From: Candidatus Levybacteria bacterium RIFCSPLOWO2_12_FULL_41_12
GTDB lineage: Bacteria > Patescibacteriota > Microgenomatia > Levybacterales > UBA12049
DNA: 34,011 bases
NCBI GenBank assembly: GCA_001784155.1
Contig: MFPL01000002.1
Location: forward strand, 1 to 34,011
Reading direction: 5' to 3'
The notes below the pieces were generated by a model. The model made no database searches. It had not been told where the DNA came from and saw only the letters and a list, made by a program, of their open reading frames with translations. The position numbers and the translations under genes are program-made. This document shows positions 1 to 27,144 of this stretch, piece by piece; position 1 is the first letter of the stretch, and every line of letters begins with the position of its first letter.

Positions 1-392
1 ATATTTTTCTCTCTTATATTCTTACCGTTTACTGATGCTGACCCAAGACTCGGTCTAATCTTTTCAAAATATATGTTTGACTTTTCAAGAGCCTTGTATC
101 CAAGCAAATATTGGTTATATTCAAACAGAGTTTTTGCTTCAACGAGATATTTATCAGCGTATCTTAAGTTGTATTTATATCGACCAAAGTCTCCAAAATA
201 CTTAAATTCGGAAAGTTTCTCGTAGATTAAGTGAAGCTTGTAAATGCTGCTTCCCGGCATTGATGATGGATAAGGAAGAACGTAAGGGGAAGAAGCGAAA
301 GACGGCTTTAAGATTAATAAAAAAAATGCCACTATGGCAAATAAGATGAGTAAGTTTTTAACTTTGAGCTTTAAGATTTTTTTGTATGCCAT
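1..392 (-). CDS. Partial secreted DUF5667-like protein (C-terminus runs off the left edge)
   Basis: Not in the ORF track. Manual reverse-complement translation from ATG at 392-390: MAYKKILKLKVKNLLILFAIVAFFLLILKPSFASSPYVLPYPSSMPGSSIYKLHLIYEKLSEFKYFGDFGRYKYNLRYADKYLVEAKTLFEYNQYLLGYKALEKSN..., open to base 1. N-terminal signal peptide plus the 'YVLPYP..MPG...YKL' signature typical of DUF5667 proteins. Confidence 0.75.
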   Translation of the reverse strand, partial: MAYKKILKLKVKNLLILFAIVAFFLLILKPSFASSPYVLPYPSSMPGSSIYKLHLIYEKLSEFKYFGDFGRYKYNLRYADKYLVEAKTLFEYNQYLLGYKALEKSNIYFEKIRPSLGSASVNGKNIREKN

Positions 393-1333
393 TTCCAAGC
401 AGTCTTCACTATTGTTTCCAAGTCTGAGTGCTGAGGGGAGAACCCTAAGGATTCCTTTGCTTTTTTATTGTCTGCAAAAATTACAGGAGGGTCCCCCTCT
501 CTTCTTTCTGCAAATTTTATAGGAAAATCAACTCCACTTACTTTTTTCACCATTCCTATTACTTCAAGATTTGAGTAACCTCTCCCCACTCCAAGATTAT
601 AGCTATCACTCTTTTTGGTTTCGTTAAGCTTTTCTATTGCCAAAAGATGTGCACTAGCTAAATCCTCAACGTGGATATAGTCCCTGATCACTGTGCCGTC
701 TGGAGTATCATAATCCCTACCGTAAAGCTCAAATTCCAACTGTCCTAGCGCCGCTTTTATAGCTCTTGGGATTAAATGCGTCTCAGGATCGTGATCTTCT
801 CCTAGGCTTCCATCAAGAGCGGCTCCCGCGGCATTAAAATACCTAAGATTCATATGTTTTATCCCGTAAATACGGTCATACCAATAAAGCATTTTTTCAA
901 AAGCAAGCTTAGACTCTCCGTAAACGCTGCCCGGATTCTTTTCCGAATTCTCAGAAACAGGAAGGGAATTAGGGGCTCCGTAGATAGCACACGTGGATGA
1001 AAAGACGATTGATTTAACACCCTCCTCCTTCATGAAATCCAAAAGATTTAGCCCTCCAAGAATGTTGTTTTTTATGTAGTCAGATGGATGCTTCATAGAC
1101 TCGCCGGCTAGAGCATATGCCGCAAAGTGAATAACCACATCAAATTTCTCATTCTTAAGCTTTCCTAGATCTTCAGTGTTCAATAGATCGCCAACTACAA
1201 GTTTTCCCGTAACGCTTTCTTTATGACCATACTTCAAGTTATCAAACACGACGGTTTCGTGCCCTTCTCTTTTAAGAAGCTTGTCCGTAATGCTCCCTAT
1301 GTAGCCTGCTCCGCCTGTAACTAGTATCTTCAT
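371..1333 (-). CDS. galE: UDP-glucose 4-epimerase
   Basis: MKILVTGGAGYIGS Rossmann GxxGxxG, YGESK (YxxxK) catalytic motif, LYGRDYDTPDGTVIRDYIHVEDLASAH. The listed ORF start (1411) adds 26 non-homologous residues; the likely ATG at 1333 gives an ATGA overlap with the upstream gene's stop. Confidence 0.93.
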   Translation of the reverse strand: MKILVTGGAGYIGSITDKLLKREGHETVVFDNLKYGHKESVTGKLVVGDLLNTEDLGKLKNEKFDVVIHFAAYALAGESMKHPSDYIKNNILGGLNLLDFMKEEGVKSIVFSSTCAIYGAPNSLPVSENSEKNPGSVYGESKLAFEKMLYWYDRIYGIKHMNLRYFNAAGAALDGSLGEDHDPETHLIPRAIKAALGQLEFELYGRDYDTPDGTVIRDYIHVEDLASAHLLAIEKLNETKKSDSYNLGVGRGYSNLEVIGMVKKVSGVDFPIKFAERREGDPPVIFADNKKAKESLGFSPQHSDLETIVKTAWKWHTKKS

Positions 1334-2190
1334 TTGTCTATCCTTAGATATTTTACATAAGAAATGGGAAATCTCAAACTCGAGAAGAAAGAAAAAACAA
1401 ATCCTTGCCACATATCCAAAAAACCCTTGTGTCTAAAAAATGTGAGAACAAACCAAGAAATTGGCTTAACAAAAATATAGCTTACTCCAGAAATCGGATT
1501 TTTAGGCAGGTTCTTAACATGGTATTGCGAAGCAATGAAAGAGGTGTATCTGTTGTTTTTTTTAATATATTTCTTAAAAGTAGGTGAGTCCCAATGCATT
1601 AGATCGTTTTTTAACCATCCGACTCTACCATTAACTACATACTGTTCATGAACGTCAATGCATGGAAGATATGCGTAATTTTTTCTAAACATTCTAATCA
1701 CCCCGTCGGGATAGACTCCTCCATGCCTCAAAAATCTTCCCAAGAAATAATTTGCTCGCGGTAAAAAGAAAGCTGAGTAGGGATCGTTCTTATTCCCAAT
1801 CGCACCATCCCTCTCTTCGATTATCTGCTGGTGTTTTATAAGAAGCGAAGGGATGCTTTTCTCATACTCCTCAATTTCCTGATCAGACATAGAAAGTACT
1901 TTTTTTATTTCTTCTGCAAGCTTTTCACTTACATACTCATCTGCGTCTAATTGCAAAATCCAATCCCCTGTAGTCAGGTCTATTGCCTTCTGTTTATTGA
2001 TGTGAAACATCGCAGGGTTGTCTGTTACTACTACTTTTGCACCTAACTCTTTGGCTTTTTCTGCAGTCCCATCAGTTGATGATCCGTCAACGACAATTAT
2101 CTCATCGGCAATATCTCTAACTGATGAAAGACACCTTACTATATTTTCTTCCTCGTTGTGAGTTGCTAAAGCAACCGAAAGCTTTTTCAT
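1330..2190 (-). CDS. Glycosyltransferase family 2 (WaaE/KdtX-like)
   Basis: MKKLSVALATHNEEENIVRCLSSVRDIADEIIVVDGSSTDGT...WILQLDADEYVS: GT-A fold, GT2 signature motifs. Confidence 0.9.
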   Translation of the reverse strand: MKKLSVALATHNEEENIVRCLSSVRDIADEIIVVDGSSTDGTAEKAKELGAKVVVTDNPAMFHINKQKAIDLTTGDWILQLDADEYVSEKLAEEIKKVLSMSDQEIEEYEKSIPSLLIKHQQIIEERDGAIGNKNDPYSAFFLPRANYFLGRFLRHGGVYPDGVIRMFRKNYAYLPCIDVHEQYVVNGRVGWLKNDLMHWDSPTFKKYIKKNNRYTSFIASQYHVKNLPKNPISGVSYIFVKPISWFVLTFFRHKGFLDMWQGFVFSFFSSLRFPISYVKYLRIDK

Positions 2191-7183: not shown

Positions 7184-8731
7184 ATGTATTCTTTGCTAAA
7201 AAGGAGTTACTTACTACTAATAGTTCTTGCCCTCTCACTCCTCTTCAGAATAACTAATCTAGATTTAATTGAGTTTAAGGCAGATGAAGGAATAAATCTT
7301 TTCCTGGCCTCAAGACCTATTTTCGGACATGGCTTTGCCCCAGGAGGGACGGTGTCAAGCCTAGGGGTAACAAACTTTCCCCTAATTAACTATCTCTTAC
7401 TTCCGCTTGTTATGATTTCAAAAGATCCCCGAATTATTTCTTTTTTTATTGCACTTATTAACTCTTTGGCAATCGTCGGCTTTTTTATTATAGTCAGGCG
7501 CTATTATAACCAGACTATAGCCTTCACCTCATCCCTTCTCATGGCTACATCTCCCTGGGCTATTTTGTTTTCAAGAAAAATCTGGGCCCAGGACTTCCTA
7601 ATCCCTCTTTTTATTCCCTTTTTTCTTAGTTTTCATAAAATTGTAATCGACAAGGACAGGAGATACTGGCTTTTATATGCCGCGTCTTCCCTTTTTCTTA
7701 TTCAAATTCACCAATCAGCACTCTTTTTCATCTTTCCACTTACAGCCTTTATGGCTTACAGGAGAACCGGAATAAGTTCTAAATATTCCCTGGTTGGAAT
7801 TGCACTTGGCCTCCTTCCTACCGTTCTCTATCTCCTCTACCAATTGAGGACAGGTTGCTTTGATTGCAAAATGATCCTATCCTCTTCGGAAAGAGTATCT
7901 GACGTTTCAAGCCCCCTTCTTTTCTTACGGCCGTTTCAGATAATCCACCAAGGGAACTTTTTCCCAATATTAGGAGAAAACGTAGTCTATTTTGCTCAGA
8001 ACTTTCCTATCGCATATTTTTCTAAGTACATTTATTATGCTGAATACTTCCTACTTGCCTTAGGAGCAATTCTGTTTTACAAGTTATTCAAAAAAGTAGG
8101 ATTTATAATTTTCCCCGTAATACTTCTTCCTTTTATCTATGCATTCTTTAGATTGGAACCTCATATTCATTATTTCTTAATAGTCGCGCCTTTCCTTTTC
8201 TTATTTTTAGGCACCTCCCTTTACTATTTAATTTCACATAAAAACCTATTAGTAAAATATTCATCAATCACATTATTCCTTTGCGTAATTTTAGTTTCCA
8301 CTTATTATAATTATGCTTTTTATGAAACGGTCAGAGCTAAAGAAAATATAAAAGGGGATTATGGAAAAATATTTGAGCAAACAGACAGGGACACAAAAGA
8401 ATTTTATAAGAAATATGTAAACGATCCCTACTACGAAGAGATGATTATTGCGAGTTATGTCCCCTACTCGTTATCGCACGGGGATATAGGAGTAGCTAAA
8501 ATGCTTTACGACTCAAAAGAAACAGAAGAAAATATGACAATCCTTGAGGAAAGACTAAGAGATGTACCTATTGATAGGAGAATTCACCAAGAGCTCATAG
8601 CTTATTACACCCGAGAAAATCCATCTAAAGAAACTATCCGGATCCTTAAGGGAAAAAGTGACTTAAACCCGGGAATGATACCCGTGTATGAAGAGGTATA
8701 CAATCTCTATCGCGAAAGAGGCGGAAAATAG
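7184..8731 (+). CDS. GT39-like GT-C glycosyltransferase with charged C-terminal helical tail
   Basis: 'NLDLIEFKADEGINLFLA' (acidic loop DE), 'LLMATSPWAILFSRKIWAQDFLIP', multiple TM helices, hydrophilic C-terminal ~110 aa. Confidence 0.8.
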   Translation: MYSLLKRSYLLLIVLALSLLFRITNLDLIEFKADEGINLFLASRPIFGHGFAPGGTVSSLGVTNFPLINYLLLPLVMISKDPRIISFFIALINSLAIVGFFIIVRRYYNQTIAFTSSLLMATSPWAILFSRKIWAQDFLIPLFIPFFLSFHKIVIDKDRRYWLLYAASSLFLIQIHQSALFFIFPLTAFMAYRRTGISSKYSLVGIALGLLPTVLYLLYQLRTGCFDCKMILSSSERVSDVSSPLLFLRPFQIIHQGNFFPILGENVVYFAQNFPIAYFSKYIYYAEYFLLALGAILFYKLFKKVGFIIFPVILLPFIYAFFRLEPHIHYFLIVAPFLFLFLGTSLYYLISHKNLLVKYSSITLFLCVILVSTYYNYAFYETVRAKENIKGDYGKIFEQTDRDTKEFYKKYVNDPYYEEMIIASYVPYSLSHGDIGVAKMLYDSKETEENMTILEERLRDVPIDRRIHQELIAYYTRENPSKETIRILKGKSDLNPGMIPVYEEVYNLYRERGGK

Positions 8732-10753
8732 CTATTGAGTTCCCCAAATCTCAGAATTAGCATTCTCATAGATTTTATAGAGTCCTAAATCTTGTGGTAA
8801 GTAAAGAAGGCTTTCTATGTATCCTTCGTACTTGGAAAGGTAAACATAATCTATAGACTTTTCCTTAAGTATCTCACGGGACTTCTGACTATTTTTGGCT
8901 GTTACAAAGGAATAATCACTTACTGTCCTTTGACCACTCTTTTGTCCTACATAACTTTTAATTCCTGCCGCTGCGGCTGGCTTATTTGGAGTGGAAAATT
9001 TACACCTTAGACAATCCTTGTCATAAGTAAGGACATTGCCCTGAGGCAGTCTGGACAATACGCTTAAACCATCCATTTCAGTTTGGCTGACATAATAGCT
9101 AGTAGTCGCTCGCAAGAATAGATAAAGCAAAATAAAGGCTCCTACTATAACAGCAAGGGGCTTTCTATGTTTCCTCACGATTTTCTTGTTCTTGATTAAT
9201 ATAACCCCAAAGGAAAGTAAACTAATAGCTACAAGCGGAATATATTTATCTAGTCTTACTTTAAATACGAATGGAATATTTGGATAAAAACTATGGATTG
9301 TTGTTCCTTCCGGGGGAACTTTATAATTTTTGACAGGCTTTATTAATATTTTATCTTTATTCTTTTGAACTTCGATCATCTCCGAGTTCAATGACTCAAG
9401 CGAAATCGTCGAGACCGGCAAAACAATCTCTTCTTCATCCAAGAAAATCGTACCTTTTTCAAAAAAAATACTAAGCCTATCTGACTCCCTAGACAAAGAT
9501 AAAAAATTACCTAAATTGAGCTCTACGGTCGATTCTTTATCAATTACAAAATCTACTACATATGGTAAGTTAATGGATAGACCGAGCTGTTTATTCGGAG
9601 ATTTGTAAAAAGGTTCCATAAAGTTATTCTGATAAATCCGGAGATCAACAATTCTTGTCTTCCTGGAGGAAGAGTTGTAAACAAATCCTATTCTGTATGA
9701 ATTTCCCTGAATCCAAAAAGATCTACTGTCAGTACCTAGAAGGTCTTTCGATTCTATGACATGAAGGGGAGAAAGACGGGGAAATGTTTTTCTATACCAC
9801 TCGGAGAAGTCTTTCATTGTCGCGATCCGAACACCTTTTTGCTGATACTCAGATACTAGATCTAGATGTCTTGCGTAAGCGCCAACATACGTTTCGGGAG
9901 AATAGTCAGCTTCAGAACCTATCGTTAAATGTGCGAAGTCATTGTAATCTTTTCTAACAGAATACAATTCTATAAGGTTATCCAGGTAAGCTGCAGACTG
10001 ACCAGCCACATGATAGTCCTGCGAGCTATAAAGGCTTGCTTGACGATCATTAGGACTTGCGTAGCCATTTAAAGGGTCTCTCGCAGCCCAGCGAAACGTA
10101 ACGATGTCAATCTTCCTTGATATGTCATTCGATGGAATGCCGGCATGAAGGGCACTCGGATAAAATGGCGTGGACCATGGCGTTCCCCAGACTGAATAAC
10201 CATCCAAATCATACTGATCGGAAATTCCCAATACACCTGTAATCTTATATCTGTCTTTCATGTAGGATAACGAGTAAGAATCTACCCACCACGCTCCGAC
10301 TGATTTGGGATAATATCCAAAGTTTTTCTTAAACTCTGAAAATACTCTATCAATTAGTTTTCGTCTGTCATCTTGAGAATATCCGGTCAGAAAAACGGAG
10401 GTAGCTCTTTGCCATCCGTCTGTTTTGTTATAAAGGACTCCTGAGTTTTTAGAAAAGTTTTCAGTAACTTCTAGAAAAATTCCTAATTCCTGTTTTTCAT
10501 TCATTGCGGACACTATTTCACCCACTGAACTGTCCATGACGGCGTCAAATGTTAAAAGCCAGGTCGCAGACATATCTCTTTTTCTAATTTCACCGTACTC
10601 TGCCATTAAGCTTTTAGCCGGGTTTTCCGTATAAGACGAAATTCTTACAGGATTTACGATTGTGATAAAGGAATTGACATTTTCTTTAGCATTGGCGTTT
10701 CCAGCTAAGAAAATAAACCACAATGTAATTAGTAATAACCTGAGGAGACGCAT
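8732..10753 (-). CDS. Secreted, membrane-anchored multidomain protein with deacetylase/glycoside-hydrolase-like N-terminal domain; function unknown
   Basis: Signal peptide MRLLRLLLITLWFIFLAGNANA|KE. N-terminal ~330 aa resembles the NodB/polysaccharide deacetylase (beta/alpha barrel) layout ('SATWLLTFDAVMD...ELGIFLEVTENF'), then a beta-rich region, two TM segments (YIPLVAISLLSFGVILI; PLAVIVGAFILLYLFLRA) and a soluble C-terminus. ORF-track start at 10756 is TTG; ATG at 10753 preferred. Confidence 0.8.
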   Translation of the reverse strand: MRLLRLLLITLWFIFLAGNANAKENVNSFITIVNPVRISSYTENPAKSLMAEYGEIRKRDMSATWLLTFDAVMDSSVGEIVSAMNEKQELGIFLEVTENFSKNSGVLYNKTDGWQRATSVFLTGYSQDDRRKLIDRVFSEFKKNFGYYPKSVGAWWVDSYSLSYMKDRYKITGVLGISDQYDLDGYSVWGTPWSTPFYPSALHAGIPSNDISRKIDIVTFRWAARDPLNGYASPNDRQASLYSSQDYHVAGQSAAYLDNLIELYSVRKDYNDFAHLTIGSEADYSPETYVGAYARHLDLVSEYQQKGVRIATMKDFSEWYRKTFPRLSPLHVIESKDLLGTDSRSFWIQGNSYRIGFVYNSSSRKTRIVDLRIYQNNFMEPFYKSPNKQLGLSINLPYVVDFVIDKESTVELNLGNFLSLSRESDRLSIFFEKGTIFLDEEEIVLPVSTISLESLNSEMIEVQKNKDKILIKPVKNYKVPPEGTTIHSFYPNIPFVFKVRLDKYIPLVAISLLSFGVILIKNKKIVRKHRKPLAVIVGAFILLYLFLRATTSYYVSQTEMDGLSVLSRLPQGNVLTYDKDCLRCKFSTPNKPAAAAGIKSYVGQKSGQRTVSDYSFVTAKNSQKSREILKEKSIDYVYLSKYEGYIESLLYLPQDLGLYKIYENANSEIWGTQ

Positions 10754-10786: not shown

Positions 10787-12436
10787 TTAAGGTGCATATT
10801 TAAGGAGTTGAAAAGCATCAGATCCATCGTTCCACTTAATCGTTTCGATGAGTCTTGCATTCTTTTTAGGCAACGGGCATGTGCCTCTATTTACATACAG
10901 CACTCCCGACTTTGGCTTAATATATTGTGGATTATCTGCGGGATCGGCGAAAGGACAGTCAAGAGAAGTAAAACTATACTTACCAAAACCATTTCCTTCT
11001 ATCAAGTCTCCCGGAGAACCCTCAGCCTGATATTTTACCGGGTCGTACTTACTGTAAAACAGAAAATAAATATATGGACTTGCGTGTGTTTTTGTAATTA
11101 AGAATTTTTGATAATTTTGATCTTGCCTTTGCAGGTTTTCGGCCAAAGCCTTGTAGGCATATCCTCTATACCACGGCCTATGAACAGGCTGGTGAACAAA
11201 AAGCTGATGTAAAAAATAGATGATATTAAAAATTAAAAATATCCCTGTTAAAGGAAGTGCATATTTGAGAACCCTTCTTTTTTTAATCTCGGTAAAAACC
11301 TCTAGCGCGCCGAATGCCACGACCATTTCAATAAAGAATACTAGAAGAAAAAATCTGTGAACATTTGGTGATTCATCAACTGCCAACGCTAACCCGAGAG
11401 GAAGAAGGACTATAGATCCAAGAACAAAAACCCCCCACTTCTCCCTTCTTCTAATTATCAGAAACGCTCCAGCTAGGAATAAAGGAAGTTCAATAAGATA
11501 AAATAAGCCGCTTGACGGAACAATTTCTCGATCCGGTTGTCCTCCTTTAAGAAAAAGGAAGTCGAAGCTGAAATAGTCAAAATAATTTTTAGCAAAAAAT
11601 AATGAGTAGTCCATCGGCTTATTATGAAAGAATCTGGCTGTTAAAGCTGATGAGAGACCATCTTCTCTTATTTTCTCTTCCAAAACCAGCTTCACGGTGG
11701 GAGTATTAAAGACACTTAACTGTCGGAATCTGCTACCTGATTGACCGAAATAAAGAAAAATGTCTAAAGCGAATATGAGAAGGAAAACGGGAACAAAAAG
11801 ATACCTTTTATCCTTTAGAAGACTTTTTCCGTAGAACAGCAATAAAACAAAAATCGTTATTGGCAAAAAAATCCTGGGAGAAGGATAGGTAAAAAAACTT
11901 GCAGTCCAAAACAGTAGCGTAAATATTAAAAAAAAGCTATTTTTTTTCTCGACCCACAAAAGAAATAAATAAAGACCAGTCAATATAAAAACCACAGATA
12001 CTAATGGATCACTTTGAACTCGGGACAGCAGGATCGATAACGGATTAATCGCACAGAAAGCTGCCGTCAAAATAGCAATCTTTTTGTTTTTCGTTAACTG
12101 TAGGGACAACAAATAAGAAATGCCAACAAATATAACTCCAAGTATAGCTGTAGGAGCGCGAACAGCAAATTCATTAAGCCCTAGAAGCTTAATGAACGGA
12201 ATTGTTAAATATGCATACACTGCGCCCTTATAATCCCTAAATGATTCAAGGATTAAGGGAAAAGATACACCATATTCGTCTTTACCTGTCTCGAGTAACG
12301 AATAGGCATTATAACCAAAGGCAGCTTCGTCAGAATGAAATCCGCTTGGAATTCTATCGAGCCCATAGAATCTTAAACCAAATGCCAAAAGCAGGATTAA
12401 AACAAAAAGTAAATTTATTTTCTTAATTCTTACCAT
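10787..12436 (-). CDS. GT39/PMT-like GT-C glycosyltransferase (paralog 4)
   Basis: 'IPSGFHSDEAAFGYNAYSLLETGKDEYGVSFPLILESFRDYKGAVYAYLTIPFIKLLGLNEFAVRAPT', 'PYIYFLFYSKYDPVKYQAEG' C-terminal motif shared with paralogs 1-3. Confidence 0.85.
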   Translation of the reverse strand: MVRIKKINLLFVLILLLAFGLRFYGLDRIPSGFHSDEAAFGYNAYSLLETGKDEYGVSFPLILESFRDYKGAVYAYLTIPFIKLLGLNEFAVRAPTAILGVIFVGISYLLSLQLTKNKKIAILTAAFCAINPLSILLSRVQSDPLVSVVFILTGLYLFLLWVEKKNSFFLIFTLLFWTASFFTYPSPRIFLPITIFVLLLFYGKSLLKDKRYLFVPVFLLIFALDIFLYFGQSGSRFRQLSVFNTPTVKLVLEEKIREDGLSSALTARFFHNKPMDYSLFFAKNYFDYFSFDFLFLKGGQPDREIVPSSGLFYLIELPLFLAGAFLIIRRREKWGVFVLGSIVLLPLGLALAVDESPNVHRFFLLVFFIEMVVAFGALEVFTEIKKRRVLKYALPLTGIFLIFNIIYFLHQLFVHQPVHRPWYRGYAYKALAENLQRQDQNYQKFLITKTHASPYIYFLFYSKYDPVKYQAEGSPGDLIEGNGFGKYSFTSLDCPFADPADNPQYIKPKSGVLYVNRGTCPLPKKNARLIETIKWNDGSDAFQLLKYAP

Positions 12437-24075: not shown

Positions 24076-24998
24076 AATTTAGGAGATTTCAATTTTTCAC
24101 TAAATCTTGCTGCCATTTTTCTAAAAGGGCTTTTCATACTTTCTATTTTTTCTTTGGAGAACCAGAACAATATCTCTTTTCCACTCTTTTTAAACTCCTT
24201 CTCCGCTTCCTTTAAGAAATCGGGGCCTTCGTAGCGGGAGAATCCCCTCTGTTCCCATACAAAAGCAAAAATTAAGAAGTGGTAGAAGGCCATAAACATC
24301 GAGACCATTAATCCATGAAATCCATCCTTATATCCTTTCCTTGCGAAAAATCTGCTTAGGAATTCTCTTAAAGGAAGTTTTATCGCATCGAAATAAGAAA
24401 ATTCATATCCTTTTTCCATAAGATCCTTCGCTTCGTTCTGTGCGTAATTTGTGGTTTTATTAATAAACTGAAGAACAGAGGTGTAGTTATGATGAACAAT
24501 ATGTTCTTTTAGTTTTTTTGCTTCGCCTTCAAGCTTAATGCCTTCATGCACGTGTTTACTCGTATATCTTCCCTTACCTTTTTTAAAAAGTTTTAATTGA
24601 AAGTCAGGATACCATCCTGCATTCTCAATCCATTTATCAAAAATAAGGTTCTTTCTGGATATCCAATATCCAGTTACCGTTGGTTTGTTCGCTTCTTTAC
24701 TCAAGACGCTCTTAATTTCTTTAGCAAGCTTGTCTGTGACCTCTTCATCGGCATCCAGACTAAGAATCCACTCGCTTGATGCCTTATCAAACCCAAAGTT
24801 TTTTTGAATATCAATTTGCTCCGGATTATTTTTTTGAGAAAAAATCTTATCTGTAAATTCCCTAGCTATCTTTACTGTGAGGTCCGTTGACTCATTATCT
24901 ACCACTACAATTTCGTCTGCGAACTTAAGCGACCCAAGACACCTTTTTATGTTCTCTTCCTCGTTGAAGGCCGAAATAACTGCGCTTATTTTGCTCAT
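24072..24998 (-). CDS. Glycosyltransferase family 2 (WaaE-like)
   Basis: MSKISAVISAFNEEENIKRCLGSLKFADEIVVVDNESTDLTVKIARE...WILSLDADEEVTDKL. Confidence 0.9.
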   Translation of the reverse strand: MSKISAVISAFNEEENIKRCLGSLKFADEIVVVDNESTDLTVKIAREFTDKIFSQKNNPEQIDIQKNFGFDKASSEWILSLDADEEVTDKLAKEIKSVLSKEANKPTVTGYWISRKNLIFDKWIENAGWYPDFQLKLFKKGKGRYTSKHVHEGIKLEGEAKKLKEHIVHHNYTSVLQFINKTTNYAQNEAKDLMEKGYEFSYFDAIKLPLREFLSRFFARKGYKDGFHGLMVSMFMAFYHFLIFAFVWEQRGFSRYEGPDFLKEAEKEFKKSGKEILFWFSKEKIESMKSPFRKMAARFSEKLKSPKL

Positions 24999-26443
24999 GC
25001 TCTTTTCCTAACTACTCCTATAGCAGCTGTAATTTCTTTTTTTGCCAAAATATAATAAGGCACACTGTAGGAAATAACTCCTAACATGACTACTGCGACA
25101 AGAGTAAACATATCTTTTACTATAAACTGTGTTCCCATAAATACAATTATACCCATAAAAAGCGCGCATATAGAAGGCTTAACAATGCTTTTTATCAAAT
25201 TGAACTTAACTATGCTTCGGGCCATATATATGGTTATGACTACTGTCAATGAAACGACAAAAGATGCCAGCGCCACACCGTTATAACCGAATAGATATAT
25301 AAAAAGCGGCGTCAGGATCCATGTTGATGTAGTCCAGACAATCATAAGATTTAATGTCTTCCTCACCCTTCCTGTAGCATCCATAAGGTTTACCAAGATG
25401 CTAGATACAGACGAGATTAAAGCATTAAGGCTGAAAAAAACCAAGCTTATTACCGCAGGCTCCCACTTATTCGCCCAAGGTGGAAAATACTTGATAATGT
25501 AAGGACCTGTAAGTATAAGACCTGTTATTATGGGAAACATTGCGCTTGTAGTGAAAAAGAGTGATTTCTCAATTGCTAACTTGAGCACACCCACATCGTT
25601 TTGAATCCTAGAATACGCAGAAAAAGTTACTTTTGTTACGCTATCCACAATATAGCGGTAGGCGAAAAGAGAAAGTCTTTGGGCAAAACCAATGTAACCT
25701 ATTTCAGCATATGTCAAAAGCCTGACTAAAATAACTGTCAGAAAATCATCTTTAATAGTAGCAAGGATATTTTTCGCCTGGAACTGAAGCCCATACTTCA
25801 AATGACCGAGAGACTTCCTATCAATTCCTACGCCTATTCTCCACGGAGAAACAATATAATAGAACGGTATTCCCGCAATGGAAGATGTAAGAAAAGCCCA
25901 TGAGAAGCTCTCTATACCAAATTTTCTAAGAACTAAAATGATTAGAACAAAATTAAACACTAAGGCTTCTACAATCTGGGGTATAACCAGCTTATCAAAG
26001 CGCACACTTCGTTCTAGAAGTATCGATGGTATGGTTTTGAAAGACGAGAGAAATATCGTAAAGACGAGTACCAAAAGAAGCCCTGTGCCCTTTTCATCAA
26101 ACCTGAAAAAACCCGCTATATCTTCTTTCAAAAGGAAAACTACAATAAAAATAGCAAAAGTTACTGCGGACTGAATAGTAAAAGCGCTTTTTAAGTCAGC
26201 TTGCGTAAGATCATCCTTTTTCTGAATAAGGGCTGCTCCTAAACCAAAATCAGTAAAAAAGCTGACTATCCTCTGGGCTGCTATTACGGCTGTATAAACT
26301 CCGAGCTCCGTGGGAAGAAGAAGTACTGATATAAAAAGGAAGGATGAAAAAGAAATTAAATTAAGAAAAAAAGTTCTAGAAATAAGGGCTATAACCCCAC
26401 GCAGAGAATGCTTTGTTAATGCAGCCAGATCTAAGTCATTCAT
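24995..26443 (-). CDS. Oligosaccharide/polysaccharide flippase (Wzx/WzxC-like, MOP superfamily)
   Basis: 'TELGVYTAVIAAQRIVSFFTDFGLGAALIQKKDDLTQADLKSAFTIQ', multiple TM helices typical of Polysacc_synt_3. ATG at 26443 gives an ATGA overlap; listed start 26464 is less likely. Confidence 0.9.
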   Translation of the reverse strand: MNDLDLAALTKHSLRGVIALISRTFFLNLISFSSFLFISVLLLPTELGVYTAVIAAQRIVSFFTDFGLGAALIQKKDDLTQADLKSAFTIQSAVTFAIFIVVFLLKEDIAGFFRFDEKGTGLLLVLVFTIFLSSFKTIPSILLERSVRFDKLVIPQIVEALVFNFVLIILVLRKFGIESFSWAFLTSSIAGIPFYYIVSPWRIGVGIDRKSLGHLKYGLQFQAKNILATIKDDFLTVILVRLLTYAEIGYIGFAQRLSLFAYRYIVDSVTKVTFSAYSRIQNDVGVLKLAIEKSLFFTTSAMFPIITGLILTGPYIIKYFPPWANKWEPAVISLVFFSLNALISSVSSILVNLMDATGRVRKTLNLMIVWTTSTWILTPLFIYLFGYNGVALASFVVSLTVVITIYMARSIVKFNLIKSIVKPSICALFMGIIVFMGTQFIVKDMFTLVAVVMLGVISYSVPYYILAKKEITAAIGVVRKRA

Positions 26444-27144
26444 ACTTTCCTTATCGAATGCCAAACCTTAAATGTCTCAATTATTGCTCTTAGTATTACC
26501 CTTGCATTCCCTCCGCTTTGGTCTCCATACTTTCTAGGAAAGTGCGAAACCTCTACCTGCTCTATTTTGAGCTTTGCCTTTTTTGCTTTGGCCAAAATCT
26601 CGGTTGTTATCATGGCCCCTTCAGATCTCAGCGGAAAAATTTTGTCTAGTGCACTTTTTCTGAAAAACTTAAAACCACAATCTATATCTTTAAAGTAAAA
26701 TCCGAAAAATATGAAATCCCAAATTTTTAAAAGATTCATTAAAATGTGGCGGAAAGGATGATCAAACCTCTTCTTTCTAAAGCCTATAACTATGTCCGAA
26801 TCATCAATTTTATCGATGAACTTATTAACTTCAGAAAAATCAAACTGTCCATCGCCATCATTAAAGACAACAAGGTCAAAGCGTGAGTTAGCAAATCCTT
26901 CCCTAAGCGCTGCTCCATATCCGCGGTTTGGCATATGTGATATTGCCCGAAGATTCTTATGCTTCTTCTCTAATTCTCTTGCTATTTCTAGAGTCCTATC
27001 AGACGACCCATCGTCAATCATTAATATTTCCCACTTCTCTGCTACTTTAGGCGCTACTTCAATTGCCTTTTCCACAACAGACACTATATTTTTTTCCTCG
27101 TTCCAGAAGGGGAAAAAGATGGAGAGTTCAGGAACTTTTGTCAT
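26440..27144 (-). CDS. GT2, DPM1/DPG-synthase-like
   Basis: PELSIFFPFWNEEKNIVSVVEKAIEVAP...MIDDGSSDRT...MPNRGYGAALREGFANSRFDLVVFNDGDGQFDFSEVNKFI. Confidence 0.88.
   Translation of the reverse strand: MTKVPELSIFFPFWNEEKNIVSVVEKAIEVAPKVAEKWEILMIDDGSSDRTLEIARELEKKHKNLRAISHMPNRGYGAALREGFANSRFDLVVFNDGDGQFDFSEVNKFIDKIDDSDIVIGFRKKRFDHPFRHILMNLLKIWDFIFFGFYFKDIDCGFKFFRKSALDKIFPLRSEGAMITTEILAKAKKAKLKIEQVEVSHFPRKYGDQSGGNARVILRAIIETFKVWHSIRKV

Follow-up and report, generated by a model that had tools for sequence, protein, structure and literature searches.

What does a secreted protein do that carries a deacetylase-like domain at one end and a piece of a GT-C membrane enzyme at the other? Such a protein was originally predicted, as a 674-aa orphan, from a gene in the window, by which we mean the entire 34,011-nucleotide stretch of DNA analyzed here. 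The window (1-34011) is a dense surface-glycan supercluster that encodes about ten GT-C-type membrane proteins (PMT_2, PTPS_related, and YfhO among the types) as well as several GT2 genes and one GT4-like gene. A single open reading frame does exist at the predicted position, on the minus strand, which the prediction had left unspecified, but it reaches 674 aa only when translated from a TTG; from the ATG, which sets the residue numbering used here, it encodes 673 aa.

Domain layout and barrel fold

The AlphaFold2 model of the window protein (mean pLDDT 93, pTM 0.90), which was built from a 62-row alignment, reproduces the layout that had been proposed: a barrel-like domain, a beta-rich middle, two transmembrane (TM) helices, and a C-terminal soluble domain (Table 1). 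Sequence comparison indicates that a hydrophobic N-terminus is present in most relatives. The loop that follows TM helix 1, KNKKIVRKHRKP, is positively charged and would be cytoplasmic by the positive-inside rule. The two helices would serve as an anchor, with both soluble domains outside the membrane.

Table 1. Coordinates of the gene, its domains and conserved residues, and other genes in the window
Feature	Position	Strand	Remarks
Whole gene	8732..10753	-	673 aa from ATG 10753; stop 8732-8734
Alternative TTG start	10756	-	would give 674 aa
Signal peptide/N-terminal hydrophobic helix, residues 1-23	10685..10753	-	model helix 2-15
N-terminal barrel, residues 26-325, glycoside hydrolase/deacetylase superfamily, DUF3863-like	9779..10678	-	Foldseek, profile search
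E95	10469..10471	-	72/72; directly after strand 3, position of NodB HxxxH
D158	10280..10282	-	70/72; after strand 4
D184 (with Q180)	10202..10204	-	invariant; after strand 5
D246 (with Q245)	10016..10018	-	72/72; not in strand-end zone
E281	9911..9913	-	72/72; after strand 7, position of last NodB His motif
Beta-rich domain, residues 329-490	9284..9769	-	invariant W347 and R354; model, alignment
TM helix 1, residues 495-521	9191..9271	-	model
TM helix 2, residues 523-549	9107..9187	-	model
C-terminal alpha/beta domain, residues 552-673, GT-C tail homolog	8735..9100	-	hmmsearch, hhalign
CLRC, C581/C584	9002..9013	-	invariant in the 31-member CxxC clade
Upstream GT-C (PMT_2/PMT)	10787..12436	-	same strand, 33 bases from the gene
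Convergent GT-C (PMT_2)	7184..8731	+	ends exactly at the end of the gene
Wzx-type flippase	24995-26464		window
GalE-like epimerase	371-1411		window

A Foldseek search of the PDB with the model returned 3lm3 as the top match (E 1.5e-13), a structure whose PDB title is putative glycoside hydrolase/deacetylase, followed by CE4-type enzymes (3qbu, 8t0j; HP0310, ArnD, a mycobacterial deacetylase, PdaC, and PgdA). The model of a GT-C-fused relative, L157, also matched 3lm3 (E 1.1e-10). When a profile of 72 aligned sequences was searched against the PDB with hmmsearch, 3lm3 was the sole significant sequence match (E 8.7e-9), in two collinear stretches that span the barrel and the beta domain. Pfam DUF3863 (PF12979) matched the window protein with an E-value of 8.6e-5 and a score of 21.9 bits for the whole protein and 23.1 bits for the domain alone, which is under the gathering cut-off of 27 bits, and it matched 23 of the 72 relatives at E <= 0.1. 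No true DUF3863 member for comparison was found when relatives and controls were searched with PF12979. Collectively, these computations show that residues 26-325 are predicted to form a barrel of the glycoside hydrolase/deacetylase superfamily that is closest to DUF3863 (3lm3). The N-terminal domain might have modeled as an unrelated fold but did not; as a statement about fold, the deacetylase-like label was correct.

The window protein has Q180, D184, G190, and an FYPS stretch in common with 3lm3 (BDI_3119 of Parabacteroides distasonis). Both also have a beta domain with a W..yR motif, such that W347 and R354 correspond to the C-terminal part of 3lm3. However, 3lm3 lacks equivalents of W155 and D158 in the printed alignment and has neither TM helices nor a GT-C part. 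The barrel is a variant within a known superfamily and belongs to an unnamed family. Within the library of papers that was searched, nothing relevant on DUF3863, 3LM3, or Patescibacteria glycans was found.

Conserved residues instead of the NodB metal motifs

While the barrel fold is shared with CE4/NodB polysaccharide deacetylases (PF01522; HP0310, ArnD, PdaC), the metal-binding and catalytic motifs of those enzymes are missing from all 72 aligned relatives. Within the corresponding zone, motif counts found TFDD in 0/72 sequences and an HxxxH-like motif in 0/72, and no histidine column in the barrel domain of the 72 sequences exceeded 49%. The lack of an HxxxH pattern, which had been pointed out for the window protein, therefore holds for the relatives as well, and on the motif count we reject an identity as a NodB deacetylase. 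A CE4-type metal mechanism is unlikely given that both motifs and a histidine column above 49% are absent, and deacetylation as the predicted function of the protein is not sustained. A metal-dependent deacetylase of the CE4/NodB type whose ligands have moved would account for the Foldseek neighbors that rank behind 3lm3 (HP0310, ArnD, PdaC, and PgdA), but the same motif and histidine counts make it improbable.

Instead of the metal motifs, E95, Q180, D184, Q245, D246, and E281 are invariant in 72/72 aligned relatives, which share down to 23% identity with the window protein, and R37 and D158 are nearly invariant. In the model, D246 is the only one of the five acidic residues that is not located at the C-terminal end of a barrel strand; the other four follow strands 3, 4, 5, and 7. 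The overall placement of conserved functional residues at strand ends (8/15; Fisher p 0.066) is at most suggestive. The protein may be the pseudo-enzyme that had been considered in the original prediction, but the constancy of these acidic and polar residues points to a pocket that is in use.

In GH57 enzymes, which belong to the same superfamily, the catalytic carboxylates follow strands 4 and 7. The conserved D158 and E281 of the window protein are located behind these two strands, a lead by topology that may point to a GH57-like site. Weak Foldseek matches to GH57/GH38 glycosidases (1k1x, 6rrj) were obtained for the fused relative L157, and Pfam and PDB searches yielded no sequence match to a GH57 Pfam model or GH57 structure. 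We infer that the barrel may cut or transfer a sugar via a carboxylate pair comprising E281 and either D158 or E95, in which case its chemistry would be GH57-like in topology and would use carboxylates rather than a His-bound metal.

A sugar-binding protein that is not an enzyme would likewise retain a pocket. The main rival explanation is a non-catalytic accessory subunit whose barrel would bind a glycan for presentation to a GT-C, while its tail domain would dock on this GT-C or regulate it. This is possible but on the unlikely side. The missing NodB enzyme motifs are compatible with it, but five invariant or nearly invariant acidic residues, together with Q180, Q245, and R37, in sequences whose identity to the window protein falls as low as 23% exceed what a scaffold usually needs.

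The tail domain, its GT-C relatives, and the CxxC pair

The predicted resemblance of the C-terminus to GT-C domains proved to be real homology. Residues 550-673 of the window protein aligned with the C-terminal domain of GT-C-fused relatives from end to end and collinearly over 118 columns (hhalign probability 99, E 6.7e-18), two hhalign controls with beta domains gave no match, and hmmsearch E-values against the fused relatives reached 2.5e-11. By these profile comparisons, the tail is shown to be homologous to the extracytoplasmic domain at the C-terminus of oligosaccharyltransferase (OST)-like GT-Cs. The link to PglB/AglB/STT3, DPY19, AftA, and ArnT runs through fused relatives whose membrane part matches these enzymes, and it is limited to the last domain; unlike those enzymes, the window protein contains just two TM helices and lacks a GT-C core and the acidic loop motif. 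The two helices did not align with the GT-C membrane core in hhalign.

The fused relatives (about 1000-1190 aa) share the barrel and beta domain and continue with 7-14 predicted TM helices, and in the OST-like ones a complete GT-C lies downstream of the barrel. Fusion proteins of about 1150 aa were seen at loci L144-L161. Foldseek matches to the L157 model (pLDDT 81) comprised 3lm3 and then STT3, AglB, PglB, DPY19, AftA, and ArnT, and this protein (L157, 5917-9402) has no Pfam or NCBIfam match in its GT-C part despite the OST-like predicted fold. Of the aligned fused relatives, 20/21 keep an HD..WH motif in the first loop of the GT-C. In three proteins (L022, L176, and L177) the order is reversed, a PMT_2-type GT-C coming first and the barrel second (PMT_2 E 2.4e-10 for L022; L176 scores 25.7 bits, where the cut-off is 26.1), and L022 and L176/L177 occupy two separate positions in the tree. 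Recurring fusions in both orders and with different GT-C types are strong evidence that the barrel and GT-C share one pathway. Repeated fusion to complete GT-Cs, and retention of the tail domain where the GT-C membrane core is missing, would also suit an accessory subunit, but the barrel family includes forms without any GT-C part. Proteins of 600-628 aa (L110, 6320-8191, and its kin) have a barrel followed by several predicted helices and no recognized tail domain.

Could the window protein be a decayed, functionless barrel-GT-C fusion that has lost its membrane core, or an assembly artifact? Its tail domain without a GT-C core is the kind of remnant that decay would leave, and two relatives point the same way. 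L175 (5983-9162), the sole exception to HD..WH conservation, has fewer TM helices and a shortened membrane part and perhaps a degenerating GT-C core, and the fusion at L173 (4009-7258), beside a Wzx-type gene, is apparently broken into three open frames. However, 31 members from many assemblies form a monophyletic group (SH-aLRT 95) with the same layout, open frames, and invariant residues, and the conserved full-length alignment largely refutes this explanation, which we regard as very improbable.

The CLRC that had been reported is present, and C581 and C584 are the sole cysteines of the window protein. A lack of conservation of the CxxC and acidic residues would have counted against the original prediction, but both are conserved: the acidic set across the 72-row alignment, whereas the CxxC is invariant in 31/31 members of one clade and missing elsewhere. 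All 31 distinct CxxC proteins fall on one side of a branch with an SH-aLRT of 95, and a CxxC after residue 450 occurs in none of the compared GT-C fusions. In 17/31 clade members, these are the sole two cysteines after residue 30. Confinement to one subclade indicates that the core function does not involve the pair; it is likely a structural disulfide or metal clip within the tail domain of this clade. A search for VKOR found none in the window genome, and VKOR is not tied to the CxxC gene (13/27 genomes with the gene versus 13/24 without).

Next to the CxxC clade, the tree places a group of four proteins (752-806 aa; SH-aLRT 88) with 4-7 predicted helices after the barrel; their tail is related (hhalign E 7e-7) but has no CxxC. 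A small GT-C of about 387 aa could be the split partner that supplies the missing core in the 15/31 CxxC loci that have one; no homolog of it was found in the window genome. CxxC-type and GT-C-fused members also occur about 27-35 kb apart on one contig (G102, G178, G196), which suggests that the two types probably have different jobs in one glycan region.

Distribution, gene neighborhood, and proposed role

The protein is not an orphan. Searches with the whole protein found matches in 11/60 related genomes, and with residues 25-450 as the query a homolog was identified in 121/374 sampled genomes of the class. In a phylum-wide sample, 12/380 genomes had a match, ten of them within the same class and two, both weak, outside it. 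A pattern-based scan of genome contigs with a 16-row alignment yielded 67 named loci, and zero matches were obtained with the single window sequence as the query. The named relatives are Microgenomates-type Patescibacteria (Levybacteria, Daviesbacteria, Woesebacteria). The nearest named ones are Candidatus Levybacteria (L115, L116), which makes the host of the window a Microgenomates-type member of this phylum, and full-length homologs in other Levybacteria share 56-58% identity.

Among relatives with long context, the closest is L015, where the gene is flanked by a GT-C on either side in the same order as in the window. A Wzx-type flippase is directly upstream in 28/32 GT-C-fused relatives. 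About half of the CxxC clade shares an operon with the order GT4, small GT-C, Wzx/Polysacc_synt flippase, GT2, CxxC gene, and GT4, where the small GT-C-like protein is Pfam-negative and takes its label from a reading of its sequence. The family is therefore tightly linked, by repeated gene fusion and operon position, to GT-C enzymes and Wzx flippases. The CxxC members L016, L018, L141, and L133 are not adjacent to glycan genes, and the first three of these are beside tRNA synthetase or transporter genes, suggesting that the gene can function outside of a cluster. At four loci (L069, 9661-10461; L070, 9405-10214; L068; L072), the gene directly upstream of the CxxC gene encodes a protein of about 267 aa with no evident signal peptide. 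The window protein had been singled out as the only evident glycan-modifying candidate here that is not a transferase. This passes over the GalE-like epimerase and the Wzx-type flippase (Table 1), although neither trims glycans.

Taken together, we consider the chances about even that the protein, secreted and anchored in the membrane, processes glycans in a surface-glycan pathway, and it is probably used in building or trimming the cell-surface sugar coat. Its substrate could be a newly flipped polyprenyl-linked glycan or a surface glycan, and its GT-C tail domain might bind a glycan or dock on a GT-C encoded nearby. A more specific proposal is that the family represents an undescribed class of glycan-cleaving or glycan-transferring enzymes with a DUF3863 barrel and a metal-free carboxylate site. 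Throughout the Microgenomates-type Patescibacteria, these enzymes would be physically coupled to OST-like and PMT-like GT-Cs and would trim or transfer lipid-linked glycans in surface assembly, the CxxC clade having a GT-C tail only. We regard this proposal as doubtful and rather unlikely.

The window genome, from an uncultured groundwater-type bacterium, comprises 853 kb in 12 contigs, and genomes of this sort commit entire gene clusters to surface-glycan enzymes. In about a third of one class, the family ties a DUF3863-like barrel to flippases and GT-Cs, and it offers a defined set of residues for mutagenesis. It would also supply a function for a domain that so far has a structural-genomics structure only.
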